Virus record (IMG/VR): IMGVR_UViG_3300005606_000004
Coordinates: 1 to 26,398 of that record
Length of the DNA stretch: 26,398 nt
Direction: 5' to 3' (one strand)
Source: a virus
Shown piece after piece: positions 5,176 through 22,160 of the stretch. Below the pieces are notes generated by a model. It was not told where the DNA came from. It made no database searches and saw nothing but the letters and a program-made list of their open reading frames with translations. The stretch's first letter is position 1. The number at the start of each line of letters is the position of its first letter. Made by a program: the position numbers and the translations under genes.

Positions 5176-7212
5176 TTAGTTAGATTTGTATTTAAGAGCT
5201 TGTACTGAGTCAGCACCATCGATTAGGTCTAAGAAACCTATTCTTTGAGAAGCCACTAGGACTCTTCTTTGGTTTGCGACATCGTAGTCAGATTCTACTG
5301 TAACACCTCTTAATCTAGGCATTACGTAGTTTCTTGGGTATACAGCTACAGAGTTAAATTTAGAGTGAGCTTTAGCAGCGAACTCATCACAGATAAGTAC
5401 TCTTGAACCAAATACTTGCCCGATTTCACCACTTAGCTTAGTAGCCATGTCACCAACTAAGTTCACATCTTGGAACTCAGCGTCGTTTAACAAGTCATAG
5501 TACACATCTTGAGATACTATGTAAACTACTTCACTTGGGTTAACACCATATTTACCCATTGCTTTTCTTAAGCTTAGTAAGTCAGCTGCAGTAACAGCGT
5601 CAGTAGCAGCAAATGTACCACTTGGCTGTGTAGTGTTTGAGTCGTTTGCCGCTAAGTGACAAAGTCCTTCAAAAGATGCTCCAGAAGTTCCGAATGCACC
5701 ATCAGCGTCATCTCCTACTAAGATAGCGTTTTCAATTGCTCTAGCATGAGACCTAACCATTGACTCTCTAATTAACGGAAGAATAGGCAAAATTGCATCT
5801 TCTTCAGTTTCATTTCCTATAAAGGAAGTAGAGATTAATTTTTTAGTTGAGAGTGTTCTCTCAGTCATATCGATACCACCCGCTGAACCTGGGTTGTATG
5901 CGTCTCCTCTCTGAGCTAAGTTACCATGTGGTGAACTACCACTAGCAGCTTGGTTAGCAGTAAATTCTGCGTAACCAGAGTCAGGTAGGATTGGAATGAT
6001 TTGAGTTGCAGAAGTCATTGGTATTTCTCTAAATAGAGGTGCTAATACTAATTCATTCTGGATATCTCTTTCAATGTTAGTTGAAACAACTTGCTCAAAG
6101 TCAGCAGATGAAACGCCAACACCAGACATGCTGTTAACTTTTTCCATCACTGATTTTGCAAGGTCAGTTTCAAACCCTTTTCCAGTAGCTAGACCGAGCA
6201 TTTTTGCGTCCATAATGTCAGCTTCAAATGCTTTTCTCCAGTCACTATTTCCTCTGTCAGCGAAAACCCTTTTAGATTCTCTCATAGCTTCTATTTCAGC
6301 ACTTCTGTCTTTTAATTCAGACTCTAAAGACTTAATTACAGTCTCTAAATCTTCGTGCTTGTTAAGAACTCTATCTTCAACATCAGAAATTAGCTTTTCT
6401 GCTCCAGTCATAACTGATGTTACAACTGTTTTCTGTTCTTCCTGCTTTGCTTCTTCAGCAGCCTTCACTTCAGCTTCCTCAACAGATTTTTCTTCCGCCT
6501 CAGCAGCTTCTTTTGCTTTCTGCTCAGCTTGTTGCATAGCAATTTTAGCAGCAGTATCTTCTGCTACTTGTTTTGCGAATGCTTCAAGGTCAAAGCCTTC
6601 AGGAGTTGTTTTATTGTCTTCAGACATATTTTTCTCCAAAATTGAGGATTTCTCCTCGCTTGGCTGCTCAATTTCAACAGCGTCTGCTGAGTCCATTGAG
6701 TTAGCCTTTACAAAATTCTTCTTAAACTCCTCGTAATCTTCCATATTATCAAAAGACTTTGCTAGAGAGAATGTTGCTCCCTGATTGCAAGGTACTGATA
6801 CTACAGAAACTTCAAAAAGTTCAGCGTCCTTTATCTTGTATCCGTCGGTTTCGGTCATATAATCAGCGTCCTTCACTCTGAAACCAACAGAAAAAGCTCC
6901 AAGGACACCATCTTTAATTAAATCTTTAACATCGCCCGCTGCTTTAGATATCTTTGCTGAGATATCTAATCCTTTATCGTTCACTTCTAAACCTGTTGCT
7001 CTTCCAATAGGTTTATTGTAATCGTGATTAAACAATATAATAGGATTATTTTTAAAGTTTTCTAAACCACCTTTAGTCCAAGCATCTGCCTCGATAATAT
7101 CTCCAGCTCTATCAAGACCATTAGTACTAGCAGACCCTTTAATGTCTATACTACCATCATCTTGCTCGCCTAAACTTTTAAAAGTAGAAGTATAATGAAA
7201 TATTTTATTCAT
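5176..7212 (-). CDS. Prohead protease - scaffold - major capsid protein fusion (HK97 type)
   Basis: A single 678-residue chain carries three head-assembly functions. Residues 1 to about 150 are an HK97-type prohead protease, with NHDYNKPIGR around candidate catalytic His63, GAFSVGF around Ser108 and the acidic strand AELFEVSVVSVP. Residues about 200-315 are Glu/Lys/Ala-rich predicted coiled coil, as in scaffold (delta) domains. Residues about 320-678 are the HK97-fold capsid protein, ending in DYDVANQRRVLVASQRIGF. In many phages these are separate genes; fused forms are known. An internal ATG at codon 196 has a strong ribosome-binding site and could make scaffold-capsid (483 residues) without protease. 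The gene follows a small ORF and the portal gene, as expected. Confidence 0.88.
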   Translation of the reverse strand: MNKIFHYTSTFKSLGEQDDGSIDIKGSASTNGLDRAGDIIEADAWTKGGLENFKNNPIILFNHDYNKPIGRATGLEVNDKGLDISAKISKAAGDVKDLIKDGVLGAFSVGFRVKDADYMTETDGYKIKDAELFEVSVVSVPCNQGATFSLAKSFDNMEDYEEFKKNFVKANSMDSADAVEIEQPSEEKSSILEKNMSEDNKTTPEGFDLEAFAKQVAEDTAAKIAMQQAEQKAKEAAEAEEKSVEEAEVKAAEEAKQEEQKTVVTSVMTGAEKLISDVEDRVLNKHEDLETVIKSLESELKDRSAEIEAMRESKRVFADRGNSDWRKAFEADIMDAKMLGLATGKGFETDLAKSVMEKVNSMSGVGVSSADFEQVVSTNIERDIQNELVLAPLFREIPMTSATQIIPILPDSGYAEFTANQAASGSSPHGNLAQRGDAYNPGSAGGIDMTERTLSTKKLISTSFIGNETEEDAILPILPLIRESMVRSHARAIENAILVGDDADGAFGTSGASFEGLCHLAANDSNTTQPSGTFAATDAVTAADLLSLRKAMGKYGVNPSEVVYIVSQDVYYDLLNDAEFQDVNLVGDMATKLSGEIGQVFGSRVLICDEFAAKAHSKFNSVAVYPRNYVMPRLRGVTVESDYDVANQRRVLVASQRIGFLDLIDGADSVQALKYKSN
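6625..6637 (-). promoter_or_regulatory. Internal ribosome-binding site and in-frame ATG
   Basis: GGAG sits six bases upstream of an in-frame ATG (Met196, MSEDNKTTPEG) exactly between the protease and scaffold parts of the fusion. A start here would yield scaffold plus capsid alone, giving the excess of capsid over protease that head assembly needs. The motif and frame are seen directly. Its use is inferred. Confidence 0.6.
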
Positions 7213-9104: not shown

Positions 9105-10403
9105 TTAAAAACTTGTCGCTGTAGTTTCAAACGTATACAAAGCATATCTCATAGCATCAGCCATATGCGATGCTTGATTATGTTTTGGCTTTTCTTTTAA
9201 TAAATTAGGGTTGGGGTCCCACTGATATTGGTCTAGTGACATTAAAGATTCTCTACATTTTTGGTCTACAATAAGTTTTTTATTATCAACAATTCCTGCA
9301 ACATGACCAATACCATCTAATACTGATTTCTTTGCATTTATAGTACTTATATCATAATTTTGTGCAAAATCAAATCTTGTTTGTGCTGCTGCTGAATCAA
9401 TATAAATATAATCTATCTCCCACTTATCTATGAGTTTTTGTATTTCTATTGCATGCTGTTCAGTAGTTCTTTCACTATCTAAATACTCATCAACTAAGTA
9501 AAATTTTTCTTCGTCCCAATCATATGCCATAACACAAAAAGCTGTAGGGTCTTTATAGCCAACATCAAGACCTGCAAAAACATCCATTCGTGAAGTATCA
9601 AAATTAGACAAGTCTGCTATACATTCTTCATGATTAAATGACCAAACTTGACCTTCAAATACATTAAAGTCTGCCATATATTCTTGATTAAATTCTGCTT
9701 GTGACATTCCTTTTTGTGCTTCTATAATATCTGATTCAGATACTCTTGGGTTTTCATGCCAAGTTGCTTTTATAGAACACCACTCAGGAAACTCATCAGT
9801 AAATCCTCTATAATAAAATTCTGCAAAGTAATTATTTCTACCTCTAGGAGTTGAAATAAATATTGCTTTGGAATTATCTTTGTCTAGTGTAGGTCGTAGT
9901 GCAACATTGAAAGCATCTCTACCGTCTGTAAGTGCTGCCTCATCAAATATAATTAAATCATAACTTCTACCTACTACTGAGTCTACTTGATTTATTGAAC
10001 CCATACGAATTGTAGAACCATTTGAAAGTTCAATAACTTTATCTTTTGCATTATCTCTTACCATTTCTAAATCAAAATGTTTAATTAGTTGTCTTTGTAA
10101 ATCAAAAGATATTTGAGATAGAGAATAATTAGGAGACATTAATAAAACATGACTATTAGGTACTAAACATACTAACTGTCCAATTATATTTGATATATAA
10201 GTTTTACCTTGTCTACGGGCTACTGCCGCACACACAAATCTATATTTAGGATTACTTACTGCATTGATAAGTGCAGTTTGGGAAGTATTAGGAGTAACTC
10301 CTAGTAACTGCAGGTAGGATTCTATAGGAAGTTTGATGAATCTGTCGTCATCAAACTTCATTAGATAATCGGGGATTATATCTTTTCTACTAACTTCAAT
10401 CAA
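9105..10403 (-). CDS. terL: Terminase large subunit
   Basis: A 432-residue packaging motor. The ATPase half has a Walker A-like ARRQGKT (residues 62-68), Walker B LIIFDEA (150-156, catalytic Glu155) and a coupling motif ISTPRGR (183-189). The RNase H-like nuclease half has AGLDVGYKD (Asp280), YIYIDSAAA (Asp336) and HMADAMRYAL (Asp416), the usual metal-binding acidic triad. Length is normal. Its start overlaps the upstream 81-residue gene by four bases (ATGA type), so translation is probably coupled. The putative small subunit is unusually far away, about 10 kb upstream in the same direction, unless the 81-residue neighbour fills that role. Confidence 0.93.
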   Translation of the reverse strand: MIEVSRKDIIPDYLMKFDDDRFIKLPIESYLQLLGVTPNTSQTALINAVSNPKYRFVCAAVARRQGKTYISNIIGQLVCLVPNSHVLLMSPNYSLSQISFDLQRQLIKHFDLEMVRDNAKDKVIELSNGSTIRMGSINQVDSVVGRSYDLIIFDEAALTDGRDAFNVALRPTLDKDNSKAIFISTPRGRNNYFAEFYYRGFTDEFPEWCSIKATWHENPRVSESDIIEAQKGMSQAEFNQEYMADFNVFEGQVWSFNHEECIADLSNFDTSRMDVFAGLDVGYKDPTAFCVMAYDWDEEKFYLVDEYLDSERTTEQHAIEIQKLIDKWEIDYIYIDSAAAQTRFDFAQNYDISTINAKKSVLDGIGHVAGIVDNKKLIVDQKCRESLMSLDQYQWDPNPNLLKEKPKHNQASHMADAMRYALYTFETTATSF

Positions 10404-10645: not shown

Positions 10646-10897
10646 TTATCTGCCTCTACGTCTTCCAGGGAATCTTGGTCTTTTAGGGTTTGCAGTTTTA
10701 CCGAATCTAGGTCCGATAGCTTTTGGTGCTGCAGAATATCTAAATGATTCCATAGAGTTTGGGTTTTTCGAATTCACAGGAACTCCTGCCGCAGCATTCA
10801 TGTCACGAGTAACTCCTCGATTCAATCTATGCTTACGAATTTTTTGAGTATTGTGAATACCAGTAGGTCCGCTTAAAAAGCCTCCTTGTCTAGCCAT
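10646..10897 (-). CDS. Small basic Gly/Pro/Arg-rich protein
   Basis: An 83-residue protein, MARQGGFLSGPTGIHNTQKI, with a very basic C-terminus ending PRFPGRRRGR. Low hydrophobicity suggests little folded structure alone and nucleic acid binding. Its stop is immediately followed by the start of the 81-residue gene, and a weak GGAG-like site lies upstream. It belongs to the run of tiny basic proteins in this operon. Not recognised. Confidence 0.6.
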   Translation of the reverse strand: MARQGGFLSGPTGIHNTQKIRKHRLNRGVTRDMNAAAGVPVNSKNPNSMESFRYSAAPKAIGPRFGKTANPKRPRFPGRRRGR

Positions 10898-10908
10898 AAC
10901 TTTCTCCG

Positions 10909-11055
10909 TTACTTAGCGCTTTGCGCTTTTTCTTTTGCTTTTATTAAATCGTCTTTAATATCTACTTTACCGTCTCTATTTTTATCTTTTCCGATAAATA
11001 TATTCCAGTATTTTTTTATGTAGTCTTTAAGTTTTTGCCAACTTTTCTTCAACAT
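10909..11055 (-). CDS. 48-residue EF-hand-loop protein
   Basis: A short reading frame starting MLKKSWQKLKDYIKKYW. Residues 24-35, DKNRDGKVDIKD, form an exact EF-hand calcium-loop pattern: D1, N3, D5, G6, V8, D9, D12. A Lys-rich helix precedes the loop and a charged helix (DLIKAKEKAQSAK) follows, as expected for a single helix-loop-helix. The ATG lies within the end of the preceding 58-residue gene, in keeping with coupled genes here. A lone EF-hand usually pairs by dimerising or with another protein. Calcium binding is predicted from the motif only. Confidence 0.6.
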   Translation of the reverse strand: MLKKSWQKLKDYIKKYWNIFIGKDKNRDGKVDIKDDLIKAKEKAQSAK

Positions 11056-11203
11056 TTACTAACCTCTTTATTTCTGTTGTATTATTTAATTTAAGTGATT
11101 TTTGAAGTTTTTTACTCCATTCCATTTTTTGCTTATATCTTGCTTGAAGTTTTTTTACCAAATCATGAGTTCTCTGAATTTCCTCTTGTAAACTCTCGTC
11201 CAT
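11027..11203 (-). CDS. 58-residue coiled-coil protein
   Basis: Starts MDESLQEEIQRTHDLVKKLQ and is almost entirely charged amphipathic helix, a likely coiled coil. I chose this ATG because AAGGAG lies seven bases upstream. A longer frame from a GTG would run far into the preceding gene. The ATG is one base after the stop of the 93-residue basic protein and the end overlaps the EF-hand gene by 29 bases. Function unknown; a small oligomerising accessory protein is plausible. Confidence 0.6.
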   Translation of the reverse strand: MDESLQEEIQRTHDLVKKLQARYKQKMEWSKKLQKSLKLNNTTEIKRLVNVEEKLAKT

Positions 11204-11204
11204 A

Positions 11205-11486
11205 TTATCTCCTTTTTCGGCGCCTCCTTTTAGTGAACGTTTTGACATTGGTGGGTTTCCCTCCAACACCTTGAGCTTTTGCTCTTTTCCTACGGACTGC
11301 CGACTTTTTTTCGTTTGCGGTCATTCTTGCCGCTACTCGCTGAGGGACACACTTGGGATATCCTCCTCTTGCTGTCCTCGCTTTCTTACGACCACAAGGC
11401 GGGTGTTTACCATTTTTCTTTTTACGACTAATGTCTACCCAGTTCTCCTTGAACCAAGTAGTTAATCCACCTTTTGGTTTTGCCAT
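11205..11486 (-). CDS. Conserved-looking basic protein with WFKENWVDI motif
   Basis: A 93-residue, strongly basic protein. The N-terminal half reads GLTTWFKENWVDISRKKKNG, then PPCGRKKAR and GYPKCVPQRVAARMT, then NEKKSAVRRKRAKA and an Arg-rich tail. I recall this order (WFKENWVDI, PPCGR, YPKCVP, KSAVRRKR) from small uncharacterised proteins of phages and other viruses, but cannot give a function. Two Cys residues (CGR and KCVP) might bind metal. Its ATG overlaps the stop of the 54-residue gene (TAATG), indicating coupling. Confidence 0.72.
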   Translation of the reverse strand: MAKPKGGLTTWFKENWVDISRKKKNGKHPPCGRKKARTARGGYPKCVPQRVAARMTANEKKSAVRRKRAKAQGVGGKPTNVKTFTKRRRRKRR

Positions 11487-11650
11487 TATCTTCCGACTCT
11501 GCGCATAGCTGTCTTATGTGCTTGTGTAAAAGTTTTTCCTTCTAACATAAGTTTTCTCATAAGAGTCATATGTTTCTTGGTATGGTGTCTACGATGTCTT
11601 CGCATAGCTGACTGTTGTCGTTTAGTCAAAGATTTTCGTTTCTTAGCCAT
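11486..11650 (-). CDS. 54-residue Arg/Lys/His-rich mini-protein
   Basis: A very basic protein, MAKKRKSLTKRQQSAMRRHR, with a His/Arg cluster (RRHRRHHTKKH) and a helix MRKLMLEGKTFTQAHKTAMR. The start overlaps the previous stop and the stop overlaps the next start (both TAATG), so it is embedded in a coupled chain of genes. This placement is the main reason to accept such a short frame. Its charge suggests DNA or RNA binding. Function unknown. Confidence 0.65.
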   Translation of the reverse strand: MAKKRKSLTKRQQSAMRRHRRHHTKKHMTLMRKLMLEGKTFTQAHKTAMRRVGR

Positions 11651-11841
11651 TATCCCATTCTATATCTGCCACCTCTTGCCTTATATGTTCTTACTAGCCA
11701 GCCGTTTGCATAAGCACTAGGGTATACCTTAAACTTCCTTTTTGCTTCGGCTTTCACTCGAGCATAAAGAGCTTTATTAGTAGGTACAGGTCTCTTTTTC
11801 TTAGCAGTTTTTCTTCTTCGCTTTCTAGTATGTCTTGGCAT
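11650..11841 (-). CDS. 63-residue basic protein with YPSAYANGWLV motif
   Basis: MPRHTRKRRRKTAKKKRPVP is followed by TNKALYARVKAEAKRKFKVYPSAYANGWLVRTYKARGGRY, which I quote only as a pattern of short motifs: ALYARVKAEAKRKF, VYPSAYANGWLV, YKARGGRY. I recall this domain recurring as a small protein, or as the tail of larger ones, in marine phages. Its function is not known to me. The start and stop are both in TAATG overlaps with neighbours. Confidence 0.7.
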   Translation of the reverse strand: MPRHTRKRRRKTAKKKRPVPTNKALYARVKAEAKRKFKVYPSAYANGWLVRTYKARGGRYRMG

Positions 11842-12737: not shown

Positions 12738-12777
12738 ATTATACCAAAAATATAGTTGATTGTCAAGACCTATTTTT
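12738..12777 (-). promoter_or_regulatory. Consensus sigma-70 promoter for the holin-like/terminase unit
   Basis: Read leftwards: AAAAATA, then TTGACA, 17 bases, TATAAT, all consensus. It overlaps the last codons of the adenylate cyclase gene and leaves a leader of about 40 bases before the holin-like gene. It would drive the mini-protein cassette and terL. Confidence 0.88.
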
Positions 12778-14542
12778 CAATGGTATAGATTTTAACTGGC
12801 TCAGATTTTCCTTTTACAGTTATCTCGTCTAAAAATTTATAAACAAATCCTTCAATCCTACTATACTCAGATATAATTAAATCAACATTATACTCCTTAC
12901 ATTGACTCTCTAACCTCGCAGCAAGATTGACAGCATCACCAAGAACACTATAATCGAAACGGCTACTGGAGCCAAAATTACCAACCACACACGGTCCCGT
13001 ATTAATTCCAGCTCCTGTTTTAATTTCATCAAGAGCTTCTTCTCTAAGTTGTTCATTTAATTCTCTTAGTGCTTTTCTCATTTCTAGTGCGCACTCTGTG
13101 GCTTTTCTTTCTTGTTCCTCACAATCTAGTGGAGCGTTCCAAAAAGCCATAATGCAATCGCCCATATATTTATCTATTGTGCCTCCATGTTTTAATATTA
13201 TCTCAGTTTGATTATCTAAAAAACGATTAATCAGAGTAGTAAGTCCTTGTGGATTCGACTGGTATTTTTCAGAGATGGGAGTAAATCCTCTGATGTCAGA
13301 AAAAAGAAATGTCATACGTTTTGTCACCCCACCCAATCTCAGTAACTTTGGATTATCTTGAAGTTTTTTAACCAGAGATGGGCTAACATAGGTGCCAAAT
13401 TGTTGCGAAATTCTGCGACGAAGTATAAATTGCTGGACGAAATTACGGAATGTAACAATACTCCAATAAAGAAAGCAGATTATAATTATGGCAGAAACGT
13501 CAAATAAGTAGGAAGACTGAAACAGATTCCAGGTAGTATATAATAAACCTGCAATACTAAGTAGTAAAGTTGGAACTGATAATATAATTGAATATGATGT
13601 AATTAGTAGTAAAATTATTAGTCCAACTGCAGTTCCCATCTCTGCAACTTGACCCCACTCAGGGGTTGATGGACTTGTACCTTGTATTAAATTATGTAGT
13701 AAATTTGCTTGAAGTTCGTGAGGATATTTCAAACCTGCAGGAGTAGGAACAGGATTAACTATTCCTTCAGCTGTAACTCCAAAAATTACAAAAGGTGCGT
13801 CAATAGGATTTTTCATAAACTCAGAAGCACTTTGTCTGTAAAAATTAACATTGTAATTTAACCAGACTTGAGCATTTGAGTCAGTATACATCGGGGGGTA
13901 GTTTGGGACTCTAACCCATTCTATACCCCCGTCTGTAGTCTTGATTTGATAGCTGGGGTCACCTACACCTACCCTTAGCATTTCAAGAGCAAAAGATGGA
14001 TATATTTTATCTTGACTTCCTACGGCGAGAGGTATACGTCTTACGACGCCGTCTATTTCGGGTGCGGTGTTTATTAGACCTACGCCTGTTGATAGATGTT
14101 CTTGTCGTAAAATGCCGGGATAACGATATAGCCATAGATGCGGATCACCTCCTATTTGAGCAGTACCAACATGTGGTCCTCCTTCATTGGCTTGTGTCGA
14201 AGCTACGAAAGCCAAGACAGCGGGGGATTTACGAAGTGCCGATGCTAATGTAGTATCGTGCTCCTTCCCTCTTATATCTGGGTCAGGCATCAAAACTGTG
14301 ATACCTGCTACACCAGAAGTTCTAGAAATTGCTTGAGCATAAAATGTGCGTGGTAGTGGATAACCTTTATATCCTTTTATAATTTCTTCATCTATGTCTA
14401 CTAATAAAATATTTTCATTTTGAATAGGCTCTTGACTCATCATTAGCCAATCAAAACTTTTTAATTCTAAAAGCTGAAAAGGATATGGATTCCAAAAGTA
14501 TAGTGCTAAAACTAGAATAGCACTACCTAGCCTTACTACCAT
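12770..14542 (-). CDS. CHASE2-domain adenylate cyclase (class III)
   Basis: A 590-residue membrane enzyme predicted to make cAMP from ATP. An N-terminal membrane segment (residues 4-19) leads to an extracytoplasmic CHASE2-like sensor (about 25-290; ILLVDIDEE, PLPRTFYAQ, HELQANLLHNLI). Three membrane segments follow (about 303-370), then the catalytic domain. Key residues are present: metal-binding Asp416 (LFSDIRGF) and Asp462 (KYMGD), adenine-selecting Lys458 and Asp536 (LGDAVNLAARLES), and transition-state Asn539 and Arg543. Lys plus Asp favours ATP over GTP. It lies downstream of curli-like and FecR genes and overlaps the preceding basic protein gene by seven bases. A full-length sensor cyclase is very unusual on a phage. 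Confidence 0.9.
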   Translation of the reverse strand: MVVRLGSAILVLALYFWNPYPFQLLELKSFDWLMMSQEPIQNENILLVDIDEEIIKGYKGYPLPRTFYAQAISRTSGVAGITVLMPDPDIRGKEHDTTLASALRKSPAVLAFVASTQANEGGPHVGTAQIGGDPHLWLYRYPGILRQEHLSTGVGLINTAPEIDGVVRRIPLAVGSQDKIYPSFALEMLRVGVGDPSYQIKTTDGGIEWVRVPNYPPMYTDSNAQVWLNYNVNFYRQSASEFMKNPIDAPFVIFGVTAEGIVNPVPTPAGLKYPHELQANLLHNLIQGTSPSTPEWGQVAEMGTAVGLIILLLITSYSIILSVPTLLLSIAGLLYTTWNLFQSSYLFDVSAIIIICFLYWSIVTFRNFVQQFILRRRISQQFGTYVSPSLVKKLQDNPKLLRLGGVTKRMTFLFSDIRGFTPISEKYQSNPQGLTTLINRFLDNQTEIILKHGGTIDKYMGDCIMAFWNAPLDCEEQERKATECALEMRKALRELNEQLREEALDEIKTGAGINTGPCVVGNFGSSSRFDYSVLGDAVNLAARLESQCKEYNVDLIISEYSRIEGFVYKFLDEITVKGKSEPVKIYTIEK

Positions 14543-14841
14543 TTAACTTTATCTGCCCAATATGCAGCCGACATTCTTCCTTTCGCTATATTTCTTCTAT
14601 GTCGTGCTTTGAAAGACTTTCGTTTTGCTTTCATTCTTGCAGACTCACCTTTTTTAGGTTTACCCGCAGTTTTAGCTCCTTGTTGTCCAAAGCGAATAGT
14701 CTTAATTTTATCTCCAACTTTTGCAACAACTATATGTGATTTAGTTGGGTGGCTAGGTGTTCTTTTTGGTTTATTAAAACCACTAACGCCTGCTCTTGCG
14801 AGTCTTGGGTCTCGTTTTTTTCGTCTTGTTTTTCTTGGCAT
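14536..14841 (-). CDS. Basic phage protein with C-terminal SAAYWADKVKW
   Basis: A 101-residue basic protein: MPRKTRRKKRDPRLARAGVS, GFNKPKRTPSHPTKSHIVVA, KTIRFGQQGAKTAGKPKKGE, and a C-terminal helix ending MSAAYWADKVKW. I recall this domain order in small conserved proteins of marine phages with no known function. GGAGGG precedes the ATG. The gene starts 59 bases inside the end of the 113-residue gene, in another frame, and its stop overlaps the cyclase start. DNA binding is likely from its charge. Confidence 0.75.
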   Translation of the reverse strand: MPRKTRRKKRDPRLARAGVSGFNKPKRTPSHPTKSHIVVAKVGDKIKTIRFGQQGAKTAGKPKKGESARMKAKRKSFKARHRRNIAKGRMSAAYWADKVKW

Positions 14842-15124
14842 TGTTTGCCCTCCTTAAACTAGCTTTTCCTGCTCGGAATATAGAAGCTACAGTTTTCTTT
14901 CCCATAACTCTAGCTCTTTGCTCTCCTACTGTAAGTATTTGAATCTTACGAGCATATGATTTACGAACTCTTTTTACTTTTCTGACAGTTGCTCTAGCGT
15001 CTTTCATAGTAGCAAACTTAATCCTAACGGTATCTTTAGGATTCTCGTCAGTATATAATCTTCTTCCAGAACCTTTTGGTTTTTTACCTGTTCCTTTTCT
15101 TGGGTCTTTTTTTCTTTTTGCCAT
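14783..15124 (-). CDS. 113-residue basic protein
   Basis: Starts MAKRKKDPRKGTGKKPKGSG, then RRLYTDENPKDTVRIKFATMKDARATVRKVKRV, a plausible small alpha/beta unit, and ends in an Arg/Lys-rich tail (TKKTRPKTRKSRR). I prefer this ATG to one 29 codons earlier because the earlier region is coded by the 49-residue gene in another frame. It overlaps neighbours at both ends. Part of the upstream basic-protein trio (49, 113 and 101 residues). Function unknown. Confidence 0.6.
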   Translation of the reverse strand: MAKRKKDPRKGTGKKPKGSGRRLYTDENPKDTVRIKFATMKDARATVRKVKRVRKSYARKIQILTVGEQRARVMGKKTVASIFRAGKASLRRANNAKKNKTKKTRPKTRKSRR

Positions 15125-15233
15125 AACCTGATGCGTATATTGCTCTGCCTTGCTTTTCAGCTTCTTTTTTTGTTTTGTAAATCTTTCCAGACTTACCCCA
15201 TCTGTAACCACCTTTTACTTTTCTAACAGGCAT
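15084..15233 (-). CDS. 49-residue MPVRKVKGGYRWGKSGK mini-protein
   Basis: MPVRKVKGGYRWGKSGKIYK continues with TKKEAEKQGRAIYASGYGKKKKRPKK. I recognise this as a common tiny protein of marine phages, in which a GYRWG turn is followed by a KEAEKQGRAIYASG helix. Its function is not known to me. AGGAG lies upstream of the ATG. Its end overlaps the 113-residue gene by about 40 bases in another frame. It follows the 78-residue gene by 11 bases. Confidence 0.72.
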   Translation of the reverse strand: MPVRKVKGGYRWGKSGKIYKTKKEAEKQGRAIYASGYGKKKKRPKKRNR

Positions 15234-15244
15234 TTATATACTCC

Positions 15245-15481
15245 TTATTGCACTACTGTCCATTTTTGAATTGTATCTTCTTGTATATCTTCCCATTTTT
15301 GAAACTCTAAATCATAACATAAAAGTTTGTCTCCTGACTGCTTTCTTATATGGTTAGGTATTTTCATATACTTTTCACTTAAGGTATACTCTCTGCTTTT
15401 TATGTCACCACTACGTAGTGAACGAAACTCTATGTTTACTATATTAGTTTCTAATTTTCTTTTTAATTTTTCAATATCCAT
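15245..15481 (-). CDS. 78-residue phage protein, WED/W-type
   Basis: MDIEKLKRKLETNIVNIEFR leads to a beta-rich core (SLRSGDIKSREYTL) and an ending CYDLEFQKWEDIQEDTIQKW. The order (a helix, a strand motif with a charged turn, then a D-x-E-x3-W segment) resembles small proteins of T4-like phages that carry an R-x-M-x-C-T-L motif, though that motif is not conserved here. Its start overlaps the stop of the beta-barrel gene (TAATG). Role unknown. Confidence 0.6.
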   Translation of the reverse strand: MDIEKLKRKLETNIVNIEFRSLRSGDIKSREYTLSEKYMKIPNHIRKQSGDKLLCYDLEFQKWEDIQEDTIQKWTVVQ

Positions 15482-16113
15482 TATAGTTTAACTCCTAAAT
15501 TTATTGTAAATATATTTTTACTAGTTACATTATCAGTATAAGTATTATTTAATCCTACTGATATTTTATCTGATAGTTTATACATTAGACTTGTTGCATT
15601 TCTCAAGTACATATCTTTTCCAGACTCAAATAATAAATTATTAGTAATACTTAATTTTTCTGAAAAGTTATAAGATACTCCTAAATTATTTCTTACTATT
15701 AATTCACTGCCACTACTCTGTAGATATGCTAAAGACGTTTCATTACTAAGTTTCCAAGTTTCTGTATCTATAAATTTATATCCATATCCAGCACCAAGTA
15801 CAGTTCTTAAATCATAATCTTTTCTAAACTTATCATAATCAAATTGTGCTATACCTAATGCATAACTTTTTTCTGTTAATTCATACTGTTCTTTGTATTG
15901 AAAATATAAATCGTTTGTTTTTTCTTTTCCATCTGAAGTTTTGTATGTATATGTAGTGTCAAAATTACTTGTCCACTTTCCTCTATCAATTATATGTTTT
16001 ACTTTACCAGAAAAACTAACATCACTATCTATTAGTGTTAGTCCTATATTTGCTGTTGTGTCTGCAATTAGTATTGCTGTAAATAATGTTATTATTGTTA
16101 ATATATATTTCAT
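15481..16113 (-). CDS. Putative outer-membrane beta-barrel protein
   Basis: A 210-residue exported protein. A signal peptide (MKYILTIITLFTAILIADTT) precedes alternating polar/hydrophobic strands with aromatic girdle residues (LDTTYTYKTSDG-like hairpins, LGAGYGYKF, LGVSYNFSEKLSI, LMYKLSDKISVGL), ending in a C-terminal strand FTINLGVKL. This matches a small outer-membrane barrel of about 10-14 strands, DUF481-like in feel. Its start overlaps the stop of the curlin-like gene (ATGA), so it belongs to the curli-like cassette. It may anchor the secreted fibre or act as a separate outer-membrane component. No direct evidence of partner or ligand. Confidence 0.65.
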   Translation of the reverse strand: MKYILTIITLFTAILIADTTANIGLTLIDSDVSFSGKVKHIIDRGKWTSNFDTTYTYKTSDGKEKTNDLYFQYKEQYELTEKSYALGIAQFDYDKFRKDYDLRTVLGAGYGYKFIDTETWKLSNETSLAYLQSSGSELIVRNNLGVSYNFSEKLSITNNLLFESGKDMYLRNATSLMYKLSDKISVGLNNTYTDNVTSKNIFTINLGVKL

Positions 16114-16793
16114 TGTTGTGTTACCGATATATTACACCCACCAACTGTAACACAGTTTTGTGTTATTTGATAGGTTTTGTTAACTGCACTATCTTGAAGT
16201 AAACTTAAAGTGGTAGGTCTATTTCCTCTAAGAACCACTCGTGCATTGTGACTCCCACTCCCCTTTTGTGTTATGCTAGTATTAGAACTATCTGAAACAT
16301 TGTAGTAGTAAATATGAGAATAGTGACTTCCACTACCTTCTTGCCATATATCATGGTCTACACTATCTACATGAATATCTAAATAATGAGTATGAGTACC
16401 ATTTTGGTATATGTCTACCTGATTTGAGTTACCCCAAATATGTCCACCATAAGTAGCTCCATCATGTTGTTCTACATTCAAAGTATTTGATACACCATCA
16501 ACATCTCCACCCCAGCCTTTACCTGAGCCCCAATAAGGAACCCAAGATATTTTATTATTTGCTCCGTACTGTAGTAAATTAAATGTATTATTGTTATGGT
16601 CAGTAGAAAAACGTATTTCATTGTTAGTACCAACTTGTGAAGCATTTATATTTATATCATCTCCACCATTTACTTGTTCAATATGTACATGATTATCGCC
16701 TGCATACAGATTATCAGAGATTAATATTAAAAGGAAAAATAAACTCCACCCAGCTATTAAAAAGTATTTTGTATTTTTATCAAAATCCATCAT
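16110..16793 (-). CDS. Secreted curlin-like repeat protein, His-rich
   Basis: A 227-residue secreted protein with a signal peptide (cleavage likely near NLYA-GDN). The mature part has about eight degenerate repeats of curlin type with Gln in a fixed register followed by Gly/Asn turns: VHIEQVNGG, NINASQVGTNN, FNLLQYGANN, LNVEQHDGA, VDIYQNGTH, DIWQEGSGSH, TSITQKGSGSH, LSLLQDSAVN. CsgA/CsgB repeats have similar spaced Gln and Asn that stack in an amyloid beta-solenoid. About twelve His residues suggest metal or pH sensitivity. Its start overlaps the FecR-gene stop (ATGA). It is a candidate substrate of the CsgG pore encoded upstream. Amyloid formation is inferred. Confidence 0.65.
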   Translation of the reverse strand: MMDFDKNTKYFLIAGWSLFFLLILISDNLYAGDNHVHIEQVNGGDDININASQVGTNNEIRFSTDHNNNTFNLLQYGANNKISWVPYWGSGKGWGGDVDGVSNTLNVEQHDGATYGGHIWGNSNQVDIYQNGTHTHYLDIHVDSVDHDIWQEGSGSHYSHIYYYNVSDSSNTSITQKGSGSHNARVVLRGNRPTTLSLLQDSAVNKTYQITQNCVTVGGCNISVTQQ

Positions 16794-17914
16794 TGTACTT
16801 GTAATATTTCTATTATTGCTCCTGAGCCATCACCGACAGTTATTACACTTTCTTTTTGGTCGGTTTCAGTTCTCAAATAAACATTTGCATCTATTGGCAC
16901 TCTTATACTAATTATACCATCAACTTGTCTATAAAACCAAATATACCCTGTATCTTCAACAATAGTATTATATTGTGTATCAGGGTCTAATCCTGGTTTT
17001 GTTCCTTCTATTGTTACTGAATCAAATCCTTCAGCAGATGTTCCTTTTTGTCCTCTACTGAGTAAATCTGCTTCCTCTATAATTTCTAATAAGTCTTGTA
17101 AGAAGTCTACATCTAATAAATCAATGTCTAACTCTGAGAAACTCCAGTCTTCACTTTCTTCTAAGTAGTCTTTTTCTAATTCATTAAATTCCAAAAAGTC
17201 TGCTGTTAATATATTATTAGAATTATTTTCTGTTGCTCTTTCTTCTCTAATGGCTTCTACCTCTGCAGGTGGTGATACAATAAATAAATTATTAATTTGT
17301 GGAACTGTAATATTTTGTATCTCAACAGGTTTTGCAGGTGGGGACGATATTGTAGAAACCATTGTTGCTTGAAATGCTTTATCTAATACAACTTCACCTC
17401 CTTCATTCCAAACAGTTATCTCACCTGATGCATCTCCATTTTCGTCTGGAAGTAGTATTACTAAACTTCTTCCTAATTCATCTATAGTTGTTGTAAAATC
17501 AGTTCCACGAATACCTATAGTTGCAGTAGGAGTTTGAATATCAATATTTGCTTTATTCATTATCCCAATCTTACCAGAGGTGAATCTGGCGGTTCCCATT
17601 GCAAATTGCATAACCATTTTTGATTTGCTAGGATTTGGGTCATAGATTACTTCATCTATTAATACTCTACTATGCTCTGTAAGTCTTAAATTTGACTCAT
17701 CTAAAAATTCTATTGCTATTCTGCCATTACCTGTATTTAGTAAATCATATAACAATATATCGCTACCAACATCAGCAGATAACTCTTGGTCTTCTCGTGT
17801 CAGTACTCCAAACCCTGTCCTCTCTATGATATCACCTATCGGAGAGGATAGGGCTAGGGGTGATACGAGGCTAATCGCCAGTATCTTTTTGATTGATAGT
17901 AACTGTTGCATCAT
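16790..17914 (-). CDS. FecR-domain exported protein
   Basis: A 374-residue protein with an N-terminal signal sequence (hydrophobic to about residue 23) and a FecR domain at about 45-145: NTGNGRIAIEFLDESNLRLTEHSRVLID and TPTATIGIRGTDF are the usual hallmarks, quoted as motifs of residues 61-87 and 128-140. A long acidic segment follows (about 235-285, Glu/Asp/Leu-rich), then a C-terminal beta-rich part. FecR domains act in the periplasm as sensors or scaffolds, and in bacteria I recall them beside CHASE2 cyclases, matching the cyclase downstream here. The ATG lies 44 bases inside the preceding curlin gene, in another frame. It may pass a secretion state to the cyclase; this is inference. Confidence 0.8.
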   Translation of the reverse strand: MMQQLLSIKKILAISLVSPLALSSPIGDIIERTGFGVLTREDQELSADVGSDILLYDLLNTGNGRIAIEFLDESNLRLTEHSRVLIDEVIYDPNPSKSKMVMQFAMGTARFTSGKIGIMNKANIDIQTPTATIGIRGTDFTTTIDELGRSLVILLPDENGDASGEITVWNEGGEVVLDKAFQATMVSTISSPPAKPVEIQNITVPQINNLFIVSPPAEVEAIREERATENNSNNILTADFLEFNELEKDYLEESEDWSFSELDIDLLDVDFLQDLLEIIEEADLLSRGQKGTSAEGFDSVTIEGTKPGLDPDTQYNTIVEDTGYIWFYRQVDGIISIRVPIDANVYLRTETDQKESVITVGDGSGAIIEILQVQ

Positions 17915-18587
17915 CTGAAGTTATATCAATATTGATTATGCCTGAACAGCTTGATATACCTTGTGGGCATGTGCCAGATTGTTGAATTATATCAATGTCT
18001 CCGTCACTTCCTTCAAAGGTAGCTGTTAAAAGTTGGTCTGCATCTTTTTGCATAGTATTAAAATCATTATTACCACCAGTAATTGTCCAATCCCATTTAA
18101 CATTATCAGAATCAACAACTGTAGTAAATACATTTGAACTTCCTGTTAGTGTTAAATCGTAATTCAAAAACGTGGCAGATTGATTATATCCTATGTCTAC
18201 ATCCCATTGGTTAGAACTACCTGTAACTGCTAAATCTAAGTCTAGATTATCAGCTGCAGTATTATATCCAATGTTCCAATCATAAACATTGCTATCACCA
18301 GTAAAAACCATATCAATATTAGAATTACCTAATACTATTGGTCCGTACAACTGATTTGAGTTTCCAATTTGGTCTAAGTTAAAAGTTATGTTGCTTCCAG
18401 TAATTACCATGTCGCTCGCGCAAGCTCCACTAGATATACTACCACATAACTTATTACCATAACCAACTTGGTCAATTGTTAGGTTTAGCGTATCTCCAGA
18501 CTGTTCAAGAAATATTTCATTATCTGTAGAATCAGCTAATACCCATGTAGAAAAAGCGAGAACAAATAGTGCACATAATTTATTCAT
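17871..18587 (-). CDS. Secreted curlin-like repeat protein
   Basis: A 238-residue secreted protein. The start is the ATG after AAGGAG; MNKLCALFVLAFSTWVLA is a clear signal peptide. The mature part has repeats of curlin type: IFLEQSGDTL, LTIDQVGYGNKL, FNLDQIGNSNQL, then degenerate Asn/Asp/Thr-rich units with TGSSNVF, TGSSNQW, TGGNNDF turns, and a final IDIIQQSG and VTINQKD. Gln-x-Gly-x2-Asn spacing is as in CsgA/CsgB. It starts eight bases before the CsgG gene's stop, so it is coupled to its likely transporter. Nucleator and major-subunit roles cannot be told apart. Confidence 0.7.
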   Translation of the reverse strand: MNKLCALFVLAFSTWVLADSTDNEIFLEQSGDTLNLTIDQVGYGNKLCGSISSGACASDMVITGSNITFNLDQIGNSNQLYGPIVLGNSNIDMVFTGDSNVYDWNIGYNTAADNLDLDLAVTGSSNQWDVDIGYNQSATFLNYDLTLTGSSNVFTTVVDSDNVKWDWTITGGNNDFNTMQKDADQLLTATFEGSDGDIDIIQQSGTCPQGISSCSGIINIDITSDDATVTINQKDTGD

Positions 18588-19407
18588 CTTTCTCTCCTTG
18601 CTCTTGGATTTTCCAAAAGCCTCTGTCATCTCCTTGACGAATCAAGGCAACAACACCAGCCTCAATGGCTGAACGAACTGCTACGGTAACGCTTTCATTA
18701 TCAGCGACACCATCTTCTATCTCTATTAAATTTGTATCGGTATCAATAAATTTAAAAACATCAAATCCTGTACCAACAGATAGAATAGTTTTCTTTGTTT
18801 GAACATTTAGTAATATTTCGCCTGTAAGCACACTTATACCTCGCAAACTAATAGTAACTACATCTCGTCTATATGAAGTAGTTTGTCCTATACCTAATGC
18901 TCTTGCTCCTCTGCCTCCGCTTGTAATATTTGTATCATATCCTATGATACCTCCTTCTATTATTACACCTGCGAATAGTAAAGGTTGTAAATCTTTATTT
19001 TCGTCATGCTTTTCACGAGTACTTCTTACTATTTGTCTTTCTCTTACTAGATGGTCAATACCATGTCTTTCTACTACTCTAAACCACTTTCCACCTGCTG
19101 CTGTTTTTAGTGCATCTATTAATAATTCTGTACAACCTTGAGTTACTGCAGTACTAAAATCAGCCAAACTATCTCTTCTTTTTCTTTGTCCTGTTAAATC
19201 TTTACAGTTGTAAACTGCAACTATTGGCATAACTTCTGCTGGCGGAAACTCAAGTAATTCTTTATAAGTAGGTAATTTAATTATTTCTGGTTCTTCTATA
19301 CATTCACCATATACTTGCATTCCACTTTTAGTACAACTATCAGTCATAGAAGGAATACTTGCACAGCTAGCAAGTAGTAAAACTAGCAATGCTGCTAACA
19401 CTTTCAT
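18580..19407 (-). CDS. csgG: CsgG-like curli secretion pore lipoprotein
   Basis: A 275-residue lipoprotein with lipobox LASC and lipidated Cys15. The mature part is about 261 residues, close to E. coli CsgG. Family motifs are strong: VAVYNCKDLTGQ, DFSTAVTQGCTELLIDALK, WFRVVERHGIDHLVRERQI, VIIEGGIIGYDTN, SGGRGARALGIG, RDVVTISLRGISVLTGEIL, KTILSVGTGFDVFKFID and GVVALIRQGDDRGFW. CsgG forms a nonameric outer-membrane channel that exports curli subunits. Around the constriction loop, E. coli Tyr51/Asn55/Phe56 correspond to a charged RKRRDSLADF here, with Phe84 kept. Its start overlaps the stop of the CsgF-like gene by one base. The rest of the cassette supports a working pore. Confidence 0.93.
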   Translation of the reverse strand: MKVLAALLVLLLASCASIPSMTDSCTKSGMQVYGECIEEPEIIKLPTYKELLEFPPAEVMPIVAVYNCKDLTGQRKRRDSLADFSTAVTQGCTELLIDALKTAAGGKWFRVVERHGIDHLVRERQIVRSTREKHDENKDLQPLLFAGVIIEGGIIGYDTNITSGGRGARALGIGQTTSYRRDVVTISLRGISVLTGEILLNVQTKKTILSVGTGFDVFKFIDTDTNLIEIEDGVADNESVTVAVRSAIEAGVVALIRQGDDRGFWKIQEQGEKDE

Positions 19408-19868
19408 TAAAAACCTCCAGTACCTATAGGGATAACAATTTCAGTTGATGAACCATCTCCGTCTTGTATAGTCATTATTATAGCATCTACACAAATACCA
19501 TCTTCATCACATTGCTGTCCTCTAGTGTAACTTATTGTGTTTCCTTCGAGTGCAAAAGACCCAGTATAATTATTTTCTTCATTACCAAACATATTATCAA
19601 CTAGTTGTTTTGATAGTTGAGCATATATTCGACTTTCTAAATTTCTTACAAATTTTGCAAGAGTAGTATTTTCTCCTGCTCGTTGTTCTGCTTTTAATGC
19701 AGCTTCAACATCATCTTGTATTTTTTCTTTTCTTGATTTTTCTTGATTCTCAATAGTGAGATAGTGTGCAGATGTACCACTACCATTAAATGATGGGCTT
19801 TTAAATTCATGTACTATTTCGTCACTTAGTAGTATCGGACTTATTAGTATTAGTAATAGAAACCTCAT
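19407..19868 (-). CDS. csgF: CsgF-like curli assembly factor
   Basis: A 153-residue exported protein with a signal peptide (MRFLLLILISPILLS). The mature N-terminus DEIVHEFKSPSFNGSGTSAH keeps the F-x2-P-x-F-x-G pattern that in E. coli CsgF (F-R-H-P-N-F-G-G) inserts into the CsgG channel. Next come a helical neck (LAKFVRNLESRIYAQLSKQL) and a beta-rich C-terminal domain (TGSFALEGNTISYTRGQ, IIMTIQDGDG), longer than E. coli CsgF by about 20 residues. CsgF couples the pore to fibre nucleation. The gene is directly upstream of csgG with a GAGG ribosome site. It overlaps the preceding membrane protein gene by 47 bases in another frame. Confidence 0.85.
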   Translation of the reverse strand: MRFLLLILISPILLSDEIVHEFKSPSFNGSGTSAHYLTIENQEKSRKEKIQDDVEAALKAEQRAGENTTLAKFVRNLESRIYAQLSKQLVDNMFGNEENNYTGSFALEGNTISYTRGQQCDEDGICVDAIIMTIQDGDGSSTEIVIPIGTGGF

Positions 19869-20106
19869 TAAGTTTTCCCTCTTCTTTTAATTCTGTCACA
19901 GTATTTACTTTTTGCTGTAAACGAATCATATCTTGGTCTAGTAACCTGAGTTGGTCTGTAAGTCTTATAATTGTGGCTCTCATTGCAGCCAAAGCGGGGT
20001 TGATAGTTTTATTTATAGTTTGCCACACAAAAAATACAAAGTAGCCAAGACCAACTATCATAACTACCTCAAATCCAAAGGTTTCTATTAAATAGACTAT
20101 ATCCAC
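19822..20106 (-). CDS. Small membrane plus coiled-coil protein, upstream of CsgF
   Basis: A 94-residue protein with one N-terminal membrane segment (about 12-32, GFEVVMIVGLGYFVFFVWQT) and a long amphipathic helix after it (AMRATIIRLTDQLRLLDQDM). The start codon is GTG, overlapping the previous stop as TAGTG and preceded by GGAG. It resembles its upstream neighbour (98 residues) in layout, so they may be paralogues. The layout is also that of BhlA/UviB-type holin-like proteins. Being just ahead of csgF, it may serve lysis or the secretion cassette. Confidence 0.6.
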   Translation of the reverse strand: MDIVYLIETFGFEVVMIVGLGYFVFFVWQTINKTINPALAAMRATIIRLTDQLRLLDQDMIRLQQKVNTVTELKEEGKLNEVSITNTNKSDTTK

Positions 20107-20402
20107 TAATCTCTCCTAGCGTCTATCTTTCCGTCCTCTACGAAGTTTTGTGCTCTCGCAATTCTATCTAAATCAGGGGATAATCCTATGACACTAGATA
20201 CTGAAGTATCTATACGAATAATGTCATTGTTCATAACGGTTGCTCTAGTGATTAACATTTTTGAAATGCCTTCTATGGCTTTAATTTGCGCAACCAAACC
20301 ATTCATCTGTTGTTTCATGATGATGAAAATAAAATAAGCCATAGTGATAGCCCCAGCTATAGGTAGTCCTAATTCTGCGACTAATTTGAAAATTTCTCCC
20401 AT
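20106..20402 (-). CDS. Small membrane plus coiled-coil protein, paralogous to the next gene
   Basis: A 98-residue protein with one membrane segment (about 10-30, GLPIAGAITMAYFIFIIMKQ) and then a helical region (QMNGLVAQIKAIEGI) and a charged C-terminus ending DARRD. It shares with the following gene the order Gly-rich helix, YF-x-F-x2 membrane end, long helix. The stop overlaps the next GTG start. Holin-like or a pair of inner-membrane adaptors are both possible. Confidence 0.6.
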   Translation of the reverse strand: MGEIFKLVAELGLPIAGAITMAYFIFIIMKQQMNGLVAQIKAIEGISKMLITRATVMNNDIIRIDTSVSSVIGLSPDLDRIARAQNFVEDGKIDARRD

Positions 20403-20552: not shown

Positions 20553-21014
20553 TTATTTTTCTTTTAGCAGTTTTTTCATTAATTCTCCATAGTTGCCCTG
20601 TCCGAATGGAACTTCTGCGTTTATCTGTACATTATTTTGTGTTTTTATCTGTGACGCTTTTGCTTTTTCCAATTCAGTTTGAGCTTTCATCTCGTCCATA
20701 CGCATTTTGTGTGCTAATGCATATAAGTCTGCTAAATCTTTATTACTATATATTTCGGATTCTTCTGCCTCCTCCAGTTTTTTCTCTATCAATGTGTCTA
20801 GAGCTTGTCCAAGTTTAAAACGATTTCTATATCCTGTATCTAAAAACACTTGGTCTACATACGCTTTTACTTCTCTCTTTCCTAGAAACTCTGATACCTC
20901 TGCTTCATCTATATTTAAGTGTGCTGAAACTAACTGCACACTTCCAAGTTGAAGATAAGCATTCGCAATTTCTAATCCTTCTGGACTTATTCTAGTTGAT
21001 ATTTCTTTACTCAT
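20553..21014 (-). CDS. Putative terminase small subunit
   Basis: A 153-residue protein from MSKEISTRISPEGLEIANAY. Residues about 8-50 look like a helix-turn-helix with a gap between NAYLQLGSVQLVSAHLNI and EVSEFLGKREVKAYVDQVF, then helical parts (DTGYRNRFKLGQALDTLIEK and KDLADLYALAHKMRM) and a basic/charged tail. The order fits small terminases, with DNA-binding, oligomerising helices and a TerL-contacting tail. I start it at the second ATG because the first lies in the -35 box of the promoter. With this start the mRNA would be leaderless. The small subunit would be 10 kb from terL, which is unusual. Confidence 0.5.
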   Translation of the reverse strand: MSKEISTRISPEGLEIANAYLQLGSVQLVSAHLNIDEAEVSEFLGKREVKAYVDQVFLDTGYRNRFKLGQALDTLIEKKLEEAEESEIYSNKDLADLYALAHKMRMDEMKAQTELEKAKASQIKTQNNVQINAEVPFGQGNYGELMKKLLKEK

Positions 21015-21021
21015 ACCTTGT

Positions 21022-21061
21022 ATTATATCAATTTTAGAATCAAAAGTCAAGAAGTATTTTT
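21022..21061 (-). promoter_or_regulatory. Sigma-70 promoter for the curli/cyclase operon
   Basis: Read leftwards: AAAAATA, then TTGACT, 17 bases, TATAAT. Seven bases separate the -10 from the ATG of the small terminase-like gene, so transcription would begin on or next to the start codon. It appears to serve the unit that includes the curli-like genes and the cyclase. Confidence 0.85.
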
Positions 21062-21067
21062 GATATC

Positions 21068-22114
21068 TTAGTCATGACAAAAGCAACTAAAGTGTGTATC
21101 ATCTAATTCTGTTTCAAAATTTTTCTGCGATAAATCTACTAATTTTATGTAGTCTGGTCTATTTGTTCTAAACTTAGCTTTATGTTTAGTCTCCATGTCT
21201 GACCACCAGTTTGCTAACTGAGGTCTTTCTTTTAGTAAATTTAAAGTAGTTTGTGTACCTTTTAAAAAACATAAGTCACAGTTACCTGCAATTGTTTTTC
21301 CATTAATGCTAGGAAGTTTTAAATCAAAAGGACTATTTTTCCAGTACGCTAATATATCTTCATTAGTTACTTTTGCTTCATATAGTGGAGCAATATTTAT
21401 ATGTTTTTGTGAGTTTTTCTTTGAATCAGAAACTCGGCGGGGTTCATCATATCTCAAGCCTAAGGCTGAATACCATTCTTTATATCCTAGGCTTCTCATA
21501 AATCTATTAATAGTATTAATCTTAAGTTCTATAGTACAAGTTCTTTGGTGTAAGGAAGGTAACTTGCCCTTCTTTACTATAAGTTTTTCAAATGGTTCGC
21601 CATTTCTAGAAGCGGTTTCAAAAGACACTTCTTTACTTCTCCAGATTGGTGATGTAGTAGCAATATCTAGTTCCAACCAATGTATAGGTACATTCCATCT
21701 TTTTTCACACTCATGTACAAACTCTAAAGTTTCTTCTAGTTCTTTGCCTGTATTTGCAAAACAAACTATTATATCTTTTGGGAGTTTACCATTATATGCA
21801 TCTATAATCTTTTTTAGCATATATGCTGATGTACGGCCTCCTGAAAAAGATATAAGACTAGGTGTTGGTAACTTATATGATTTATCGTAAGTGTCTAAAT
21901 TTTTTGCTGCTGGCATATACTTTATCGGCCAGTACTCCATATTTGATGCCCATATTCTATCATATCTATACTCTTTAAATTTTTTACCATTTAGATGAAT
22001 AATCTGACCTTGTTTGTATGGTTGTTTAGTTTCTGGATTTAATAACAGTTTTTTAGTTTCACCAGCATCGTTAGTATGCCACCAAATATTATTTTCGTCT
22101 ACCCATTTACTCAT
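21068..22114 (-). CDS. PP-loop ATPase, PAPS-reductase-like, with C-terminal Cys cluster
   Basis: A 348-residue protein with the PP-loop SGGRTS (91-96), the usual ATP pyrophosphatase signature, followed by IIVCFANTGKELEETLEF and the Arg/Cys-bearing LHQRTCTIELK (around Cys193). Cys279-x2-Cys282 (CDLCFLKG) and a C-terminal SCFC (Cys344, Cys346) could, with Cys193, hold an iron-sulfur cluster. Family members include PAPS reductase, DndC (DNA phosphorothioation) and thiolation enzymes, so a role in sulfur or DNA/nucleotide modification is likely. No partner dnd genes are visible here. The N-terminal 75 residues (KWVDENNIWWHTNDAGETKK) are unrecognised. Its ATG sits six bases from the -10, so the transcript may be leaderless. 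Confidence 0.8.
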   Translation of the reverse strand: MSKWVDENNIWWHTNDAGETKKLLLNPETKQPYKQGQIIHLNGKKFKEYRYDRIWASNMEYWPIKYMPAAKNLDTYDKSYKLPTPSLISFSGGRTSAYMLKKIIDAYNGKLPKDIIVCFANTGKELEETLEFVHECEKRWNVPIHWLELDIATTSPIWRSKEVSFETASRNGEPFEKLIVKKGKLPSLHQRTCTIELKINTINRFMRSLGYKEWYSALGLRYDEPRRVSDSKKNSQKHINIAPLYEAKVTNEDILAYWKNSPFDLKLPSINGKTIAGNCDLCFLKGTQTTLNLLKERPQLANWWSDMETKHKAKFRTNRPDYIKLVDLSQKNFETELDDTHFSCFCHD

Positions 22115-22120
22115 AATCTA

Positions 22121-22160
22121 ATTGTATCAAAGTTGAAGACAAATGTCAAGAAATATTTTT
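22121..22160 (-). promoter_or_regulatory. Sigma-70 promoter for the PP-loop ATPase gene
   Basis: Read leftwards: AAAAATA, then TTGACA, 17 bases, TACAAT. Only six bases separate the -10 box from the ATG of the PP-loop gene, predicting a start of transcription at the start codon. Confidence 0.82.

Follow-up and report, generated by a model that had tools for sequence, protein, structure and literature searches.

A 26.4-kb viral record (the window, by which we mean the whole stretch of DNA that was analysed) carries on its minus strand, between the genes for the small and large terminase subunits (TerS and TerL), a block of genes that is probably a compact, phage-borne form of the type VIII (curli) system of alphaproteobacteria. 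In such a system CsgG and CsgF would export two curlin-like proteins, here called CrlA and CrlB, and a FecR-domain protein and an adenylate cyclase would add a signalling function. The original prediction was made from the sequence alone; the cassette is not new, since phage modules of this type had already been published between 2020 and 2022, by Zaragoza-Solas et al. 2020 (PMC7029224), by Wittmers et al. 2022 (PMC9599517), who described the block in HTVC023P-type podoviruses and T4-like myoviruses, and by Buchholz 2022. Many ocean viruses carry phage curli genes, the roles of which are so far putative. What is new here is a T5-like carrier lineage, which bears the block as a standard feature, and the location of the block between terminase genes; no report of T5-like phages with a curli module was found in the literature searched, which is not proof of absence.

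Composition and layout of the block

In the direction of transcription, the block consists of the genes for TMb, TMa, CsgF, CsgG, CrlA, the FecR-domain protein, CrlB, a DUF481 protein, a few short proteins and a CHASE2-adenylate cyclase, and it extends from position 20402 (upstream end) to 12770 (downstream end); all coordinates below refer to the minus strand. The range first proposed, 16110-19868, does contain the four genes named for it (CsgF, CsgG, CrlA and CrlB), but its limits were too narrow, and the FecR gene inside it was overlooked, as were the DUF481, cyclase and TMa/TMb genes. The observation that the genes overlap or are coupled agrees with the gene coordinates, in which the members from TMb through DUF481 overlap or touch.

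The identification of CsgG, of an adjacent CsgF with an F-x2-P-x-F-x-G motif, and the absence of CsgE have all withstood closer analysis. CsgG (18580..19407), an outer-membrane pore lipoprotein, matches the Pfam CsgG family with an E-value of 1.3e-47; its residues 44-273 match E. coli CsgG structures in a PDB search (E 3e-50), and the lipobox cysteine, Cys15, is invariant in 34 aligned sequences. CsgF (19407..19868; Pfam CsgF 5.4e-13) has a predicted N-terminal CsgG-binding motif, F22-x2-P25-x-F27-x-G29, which is invariant in 26 aligned sequences. CsgE had no match in the window, in five related viral contigs, in the phages HTVC008M and Melnitz, or in the Hyphomonas genome discussed below. Since CsgE is reported to be absent from alphaproteobacterial-type curli operons as well (PMC9599517), it is not required in the wider type VIII family.

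The two secreted curlin-like proteins of the original prediction are CrlA (17871..18587; the ORF is open from 18629, but 18587 is the more likely start) and CrlB (16110..16793). The only Pfam Curlin_rpt hits in the window, three in number, fall within these genes, at 18453-18527 in CrlA (E 7.7e-4) and at 16563-16664 (E 1.1e-3) and 16395-16433 (E 2.5e-3) in CrlB. These hits are below the curated cut-off, whereas those in Melnitz, in HTVC008M and in two further related records exceed it; among relatives, 16 of 41 CrlB and 10 of 31 CrlA proteins match the family. Each of the two proteins also has two copies of Q-x-G-x-x-N (shuffle p 0.006 and 0.012). When profiles were compared with the PDB, CrlB found the solved curlins 8c50 (1.4e-4) and 8enq, a CsgA (0.004), and CrlA found nothing meaningful. 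Structure prediction, which had been proposed as a check on both repeat proteins, yielded all-beta models (pLDDT 80 for CrlA and 79 for CrlB), but comparison of the folds fails to single out curli. Foldseek gave no PDB match below E 0.001 for either model, and by VIA-align both resemble the right-handed beta-helix type (SufB/SufD, Z 16), with CsgA 8enq matched by the CrlA model only (Z 11.4, rmsd 8.9). Many unrelated beta-helices score alike, so the fold comparison does not decide whether the proteins are amyloid. We regard CrlA and CrlB as putative curlin-like proteins, and infer that they may form amyloid.

A separate observation concerns the CrlB gene. Between the window and its closest relatives, contigs L002 and L004, CrlB is only 38-39% identical though CsgG is 87-88% identical, an apparent allele swap of this cargo gene between sister phages. 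At three other loci (L234, L241 and L273) CrlB lies upstream of CsgF, not downstream of FecR.

The FecR-domain protein (16790..17914; Pfam FecR 3.3e-9) lies between the two cargo genes, and the last gene of the block (12770..14542) encodes a CHASE2 domain (Pfam 9.9e-34) joined to a class III adenylate cyclase (Guanylate_cyc 4.8e-21). Across 70 homologues, the cyclase catalytic residues D416, K458, D462, D536 and R543 are invariant, and N539 is present in 68, with Ser in the other two. L002 and L004 have no CHASE2 domain anywhere in their whole records. In these cyclase-less sisters the FecR domain has an identity to that of the window of just 0.59-0.60, despite their very similar CsgG, whereas in more distant, cyclase-bearing relatives (CsgG approximately 70-78% identical) it reaches 0.77-0.82; the C-terminal part of the FecR protein shows no comparable drop in L002 and L004. 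This drift of the FecR domain where the cyclase is missing suggests that the CHASE2 cyclase may be its partner, the covariation stemming from one loss event, and the natural loss variant makes the partnership testable.

At the upstream end, TMb (20106..20402; 98 aa; phrog_18771) has a single predicted membrane segment at its N-terminus, followed by a helical tail, and TMa (19822..20106; 94 aa) is a paralogue-like companion that shares its PHROG. The small upstream genes of the published module were labelled histidine kinases (PMC9599517), to which TMa and TMb, at 94-98 aa, appear to correspond by position. No HisKA/HATPase match was found with Pfam in 20 TMb relatives, nor in the window's TMa, and we doubt the kinase label, though not the membership of these genes in the module. 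The DUF481 protein (15481..16113; Pfam DUF481 1.4e-22) is of outer-membrane barrel type and its gene is translationally coupled to CrlB; it was found in the block at 1 of 110 loci, namely the window, and not in 7 related records searched.

The window has five promoters of the extended -10 sigma-70 type, against 0.02 expected. One of them, TTGAC-N15-TGNTANAAT (21022..21050), reads into TerS (20553..21014, with 21014 its probable start; PHROG 3802, E 1e-39) and the block. Another, at 12738..12766 and conserved in position in most relatives, lies directly behind the cyclase gene and opens the next unit. TerS and the block thus look like one transcription unit, presumably driven as a whole by the promoter at 21022..21050 and with TerS as its presumed first gene. 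Immediately upstream of TerS is a PAPS-reductase-family gene (21068-22114) with its own strong promoter. In this gene and in TerS a strong -10 box precedes the start codon by 7-8 bases (22114-22149 and 21014-21050, respectively), which suggests that both mRNAs may be leaderless. An Rfam search found no RNA elements.

Conservation and relatives

IMG/VR holds 486 stretches that encode a relative of CsgG, and the loci studied were the best 80 of these 486 together with 30 from a FecR query. Co-occurrence was counted only for loci on contigs that reach far enough, and a few contigs entered twice. On this basis, CsgG is accompanied by CsgF (102/102), TMa (102/102), TMb (101/101), CrlA (92/92), FecR (86/86) and CrlB (53/53) without exception, and by the cyclase at 38 of 42 testable loci, the four misses all coming from just two contigs (L002 and L004). 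The block genes have a median dN/dS of 0.06-0.18, compared with 0.06-0.16 for terminase, portal and capsid. Every block gene is under purifying selection and the block is kept whole. The selected unit is therefore the entire block, that is, the pore, its plug, two cargo proteins, FecR, two membrane proteins and usually the cyclase. A search for the gene order in viral genomes, one of the checks proposed initially, recovered the same order in about 100 viral loci; together with the selection on each gene, this bears out the claim of a phage-borne type VIII cassette that is no stray host fragment.

The pelagiphage module (Wittmers 2022) has the identical order of two small genes, CsgF, CsgG, a curlin, FecR, a second curlin and adenylate cyclase. 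The window differs from it in its T5-like carrier and in that CrlB and the cyclase are separated by an additional DUF481 gene and by short genes for basic proteins. The isolated Kyanoviridae HTVC008M and Melnitz, which infect Pelagibacter and OM43, also have the full module, including FecR, two curlin-like proteins and the cyclase, but are T4-like, with a CsgG that is 42-48% identical to the window's and a different genome context. Compared with E. coli curli (csgBAC-csgDEFG), the window shares homologues of CsgG and CsgF and a putative curlin-repeat cargo; however, neither CsgD nor CsgC was seen in the operon and CsgE is missing, whereas FecR, the cyclase and TMa/TMb are added and the cargo repeats are strongly diverged.

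Among bacteria, a single operon of Hyphomonas sp. TMED17 (L120, a 705-kb contig) encodes CsgF and CsgG together with a curlin-repeat protein, a FecR protein and a CHASE2 cyclase, and the genes for the last two overlap. Unlike the block in the window, this operon is chromosomal, lacks TMa/TMb, and has one long curlin-repeat protein (504 aa) in place of the window's pair of short ones. As a correction, then, a bacterial chromosome can also hold predicted FecR and CHASE2-cyclase genes within its curli operon, although Hyphomonas is an exception. With a FecR profile, 385 genomes of the class to which Hyphomonas belongs were found to have widespread FecR domains, but a close match occurred only in the Hyphomonas genome itself; two weaker matches, in other Hyphomonadaceae genomes, adjoin genes of the CHASE2-cyclase type. 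Adjacency of this kind is an indirect hint that FecR and the cyclase may work as a pair.

Proposed function and alternatives

We propose that CsgG would form an outer-membrane pore in the infected cell, onto which CsgF would dock through its N-terminal motif. CrlA and CrlB would be exported by Sec and then exit through CsgG, and on the cell surface they would build up beta-structured material of the curlin type. The periplasmic FecR-domain protein and the inner-membrane CHASE2 cyclase would act as a signalling pair that reports, by way of cAMP, on export or on the condition of the envelope. We infer that the cargo would leave the cell and form amyloid, that FecR would signal to the cyclase, and that the phage would benefit; as to the benefit, we consider it more likely that the surface of infected cells is altered, so that they aggregate or shut out rival phages, than that lysis is controlled. 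Surface export of the curlin-like proteins is supported by the retention of cargo with the pore, by the intact motifs and by selection. It is weakened by curlin repeats that, in the window, fall below the Pfam cut-off and by the missing CsgE gate, and the fact that no clumping was observed in Melnitz cultures (PMC9004378) counts against it.

The original prediction listed several roles (an amyloid coat, binding of cells together, a block to superinfection, opening of the outer membrane, or fibre on the virion), which sequence does not separate, although some of them encounter contrary evidence. One could suppose that the pore itself is what matters, and that CsgG, with or without CsgF, permeabilises the outer membrane for uptake or for the timing of lysis, the cargo being secondary. 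Among the exported parts, CsgG shows the strongest conservation, no gate protein was found, and such a role in permeability or lysis timing was proposed for the CsgG of Melnitz, on the absence of curlin genes (PMC9004378). However, Melnitz has genes for two curlin-repeat proteins, FecR and a cyclase; judging from these predicted genes, the published absence needs correction, and the chief argument for a pore-only function in that phage is removed. Moreover, the cargo genes are under purifying selection and are not lost where the pore stays, a cargo gene being retained at 92 of 92 testable loci. We therefore consider this explanation unlikely.

It is also improbable that signalling is the main function, with the curlin-like proteins and CsgG feeding a sensor made up of FecR and the CHASE2 cyclase, the cAMP from which reprograms host transcription for the phage. 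The presence of FecR at all 86 testable loci, the conserved cyclase residues and the drift of FecR in the absence of the cyclase fit such a scheme, but the window's closest relatives, which have no cyclase, retain the pore, the cargo and FecR, so export seems useful without the cyclase. It is very unlikely that CrlA and CrlB belong to the virion, as fibres, instead of being surface material of the infected cell: the block does lie among packaging genes in T5-like phages and the models do resemble beta-helices, but both proteins appear to have signal peptides and are served by a dedicated exporter in the outer membrane, the block lies near replication genes (CobS, clamp, clamp loader) in T4-like phages, and tail fibre genes are elsewhere in a 103-kb relative (L007).

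Carrier phages and history of the block

The best matches of the window's TerL (9105-10403; 49%), portal (41%) and protease-capsid protein (38-40%) are T5-like phages, and L007 encodes a 1344-aa tape measure, PolA, an SbcC-like nuclease and a ribonucleotide reductase. By these predicted genes, therefore, the window is part of a T5-like phage, in the broad group of Demerecviridae and related siphoviruses. Among its 80 nearest terminase relatives, contigs that extend far enough upstream of TerL bear block genes, usually with the cyclase first; it is the cyclase only that is missing in the exceptions, namely L002, L004 and L195, the last of which is a short contig. This carrier differs from the 59-kb HTVC023P-type podoviruses and from the T4-like phages, which account for most of the remaining copies. 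Non-T5 loci were classed by CobS, clamp and clamp-loader genes; 25 loci stayed unclassified, and about a quarter of the loci outside the T5-like phages have no certain lineage. The flanking genes of HTVC008M and Melnitz were of no use for this classification.

In a tree, the phage CsgGs group with support of 100/99, apart from other cellular CsgGs, and the Hyphomonas CsgG falls inside this group on a long branch. An AU test does not reject a phage-only clade without Hyphomonas (p 0.105), so the tree is compatible with transfer between phage and Hyphomonas in either direction. A single clade of T5-like CsgGs is rejected (p 0.0003), which implies that the block has probably moved between phage lineages. 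A bolder scenario, to which we give little credence, is that the block evolved in phages as an export-and-signal device, in which FecR would sense curlin export to switch the cyclase, and that it spread among T5-like phages, T4-like phages and podoviruses with at least one exchange with a chromosome, possibly from phage to Hyphomonas. If true, a bacterial curli operon, that of Hyphomonas, would have a phage origin.

Contigs with phage-type curli genes are also found in bacterial MAGs of several phyla (L113-L119, L121-L123, L125 and L130) and are probably mis-binned phage DNA; Saprospirales, Planctomycetes, Synechococcus and others were accordingly not accepted as hosts of phage-type CsgG. Conversely, a 'Salmonella phage' CsgG (L112, OR851715.1, 1499 bases) falls with Pseudomonas in the tree, and the record probably contains bacterial DNA.

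Two further features of the window concern its T5-like background. A cluster of very Lys/Arg-rich mini-proteins (10646-11841 and 14536-15211) is conserved across the T5-like clade, with varying order. At 5176-7212, the head maturation protease and the major capsid protein are fused in one frame of 678 aa, whereas they are two genes in the best-matching T5-like phages.
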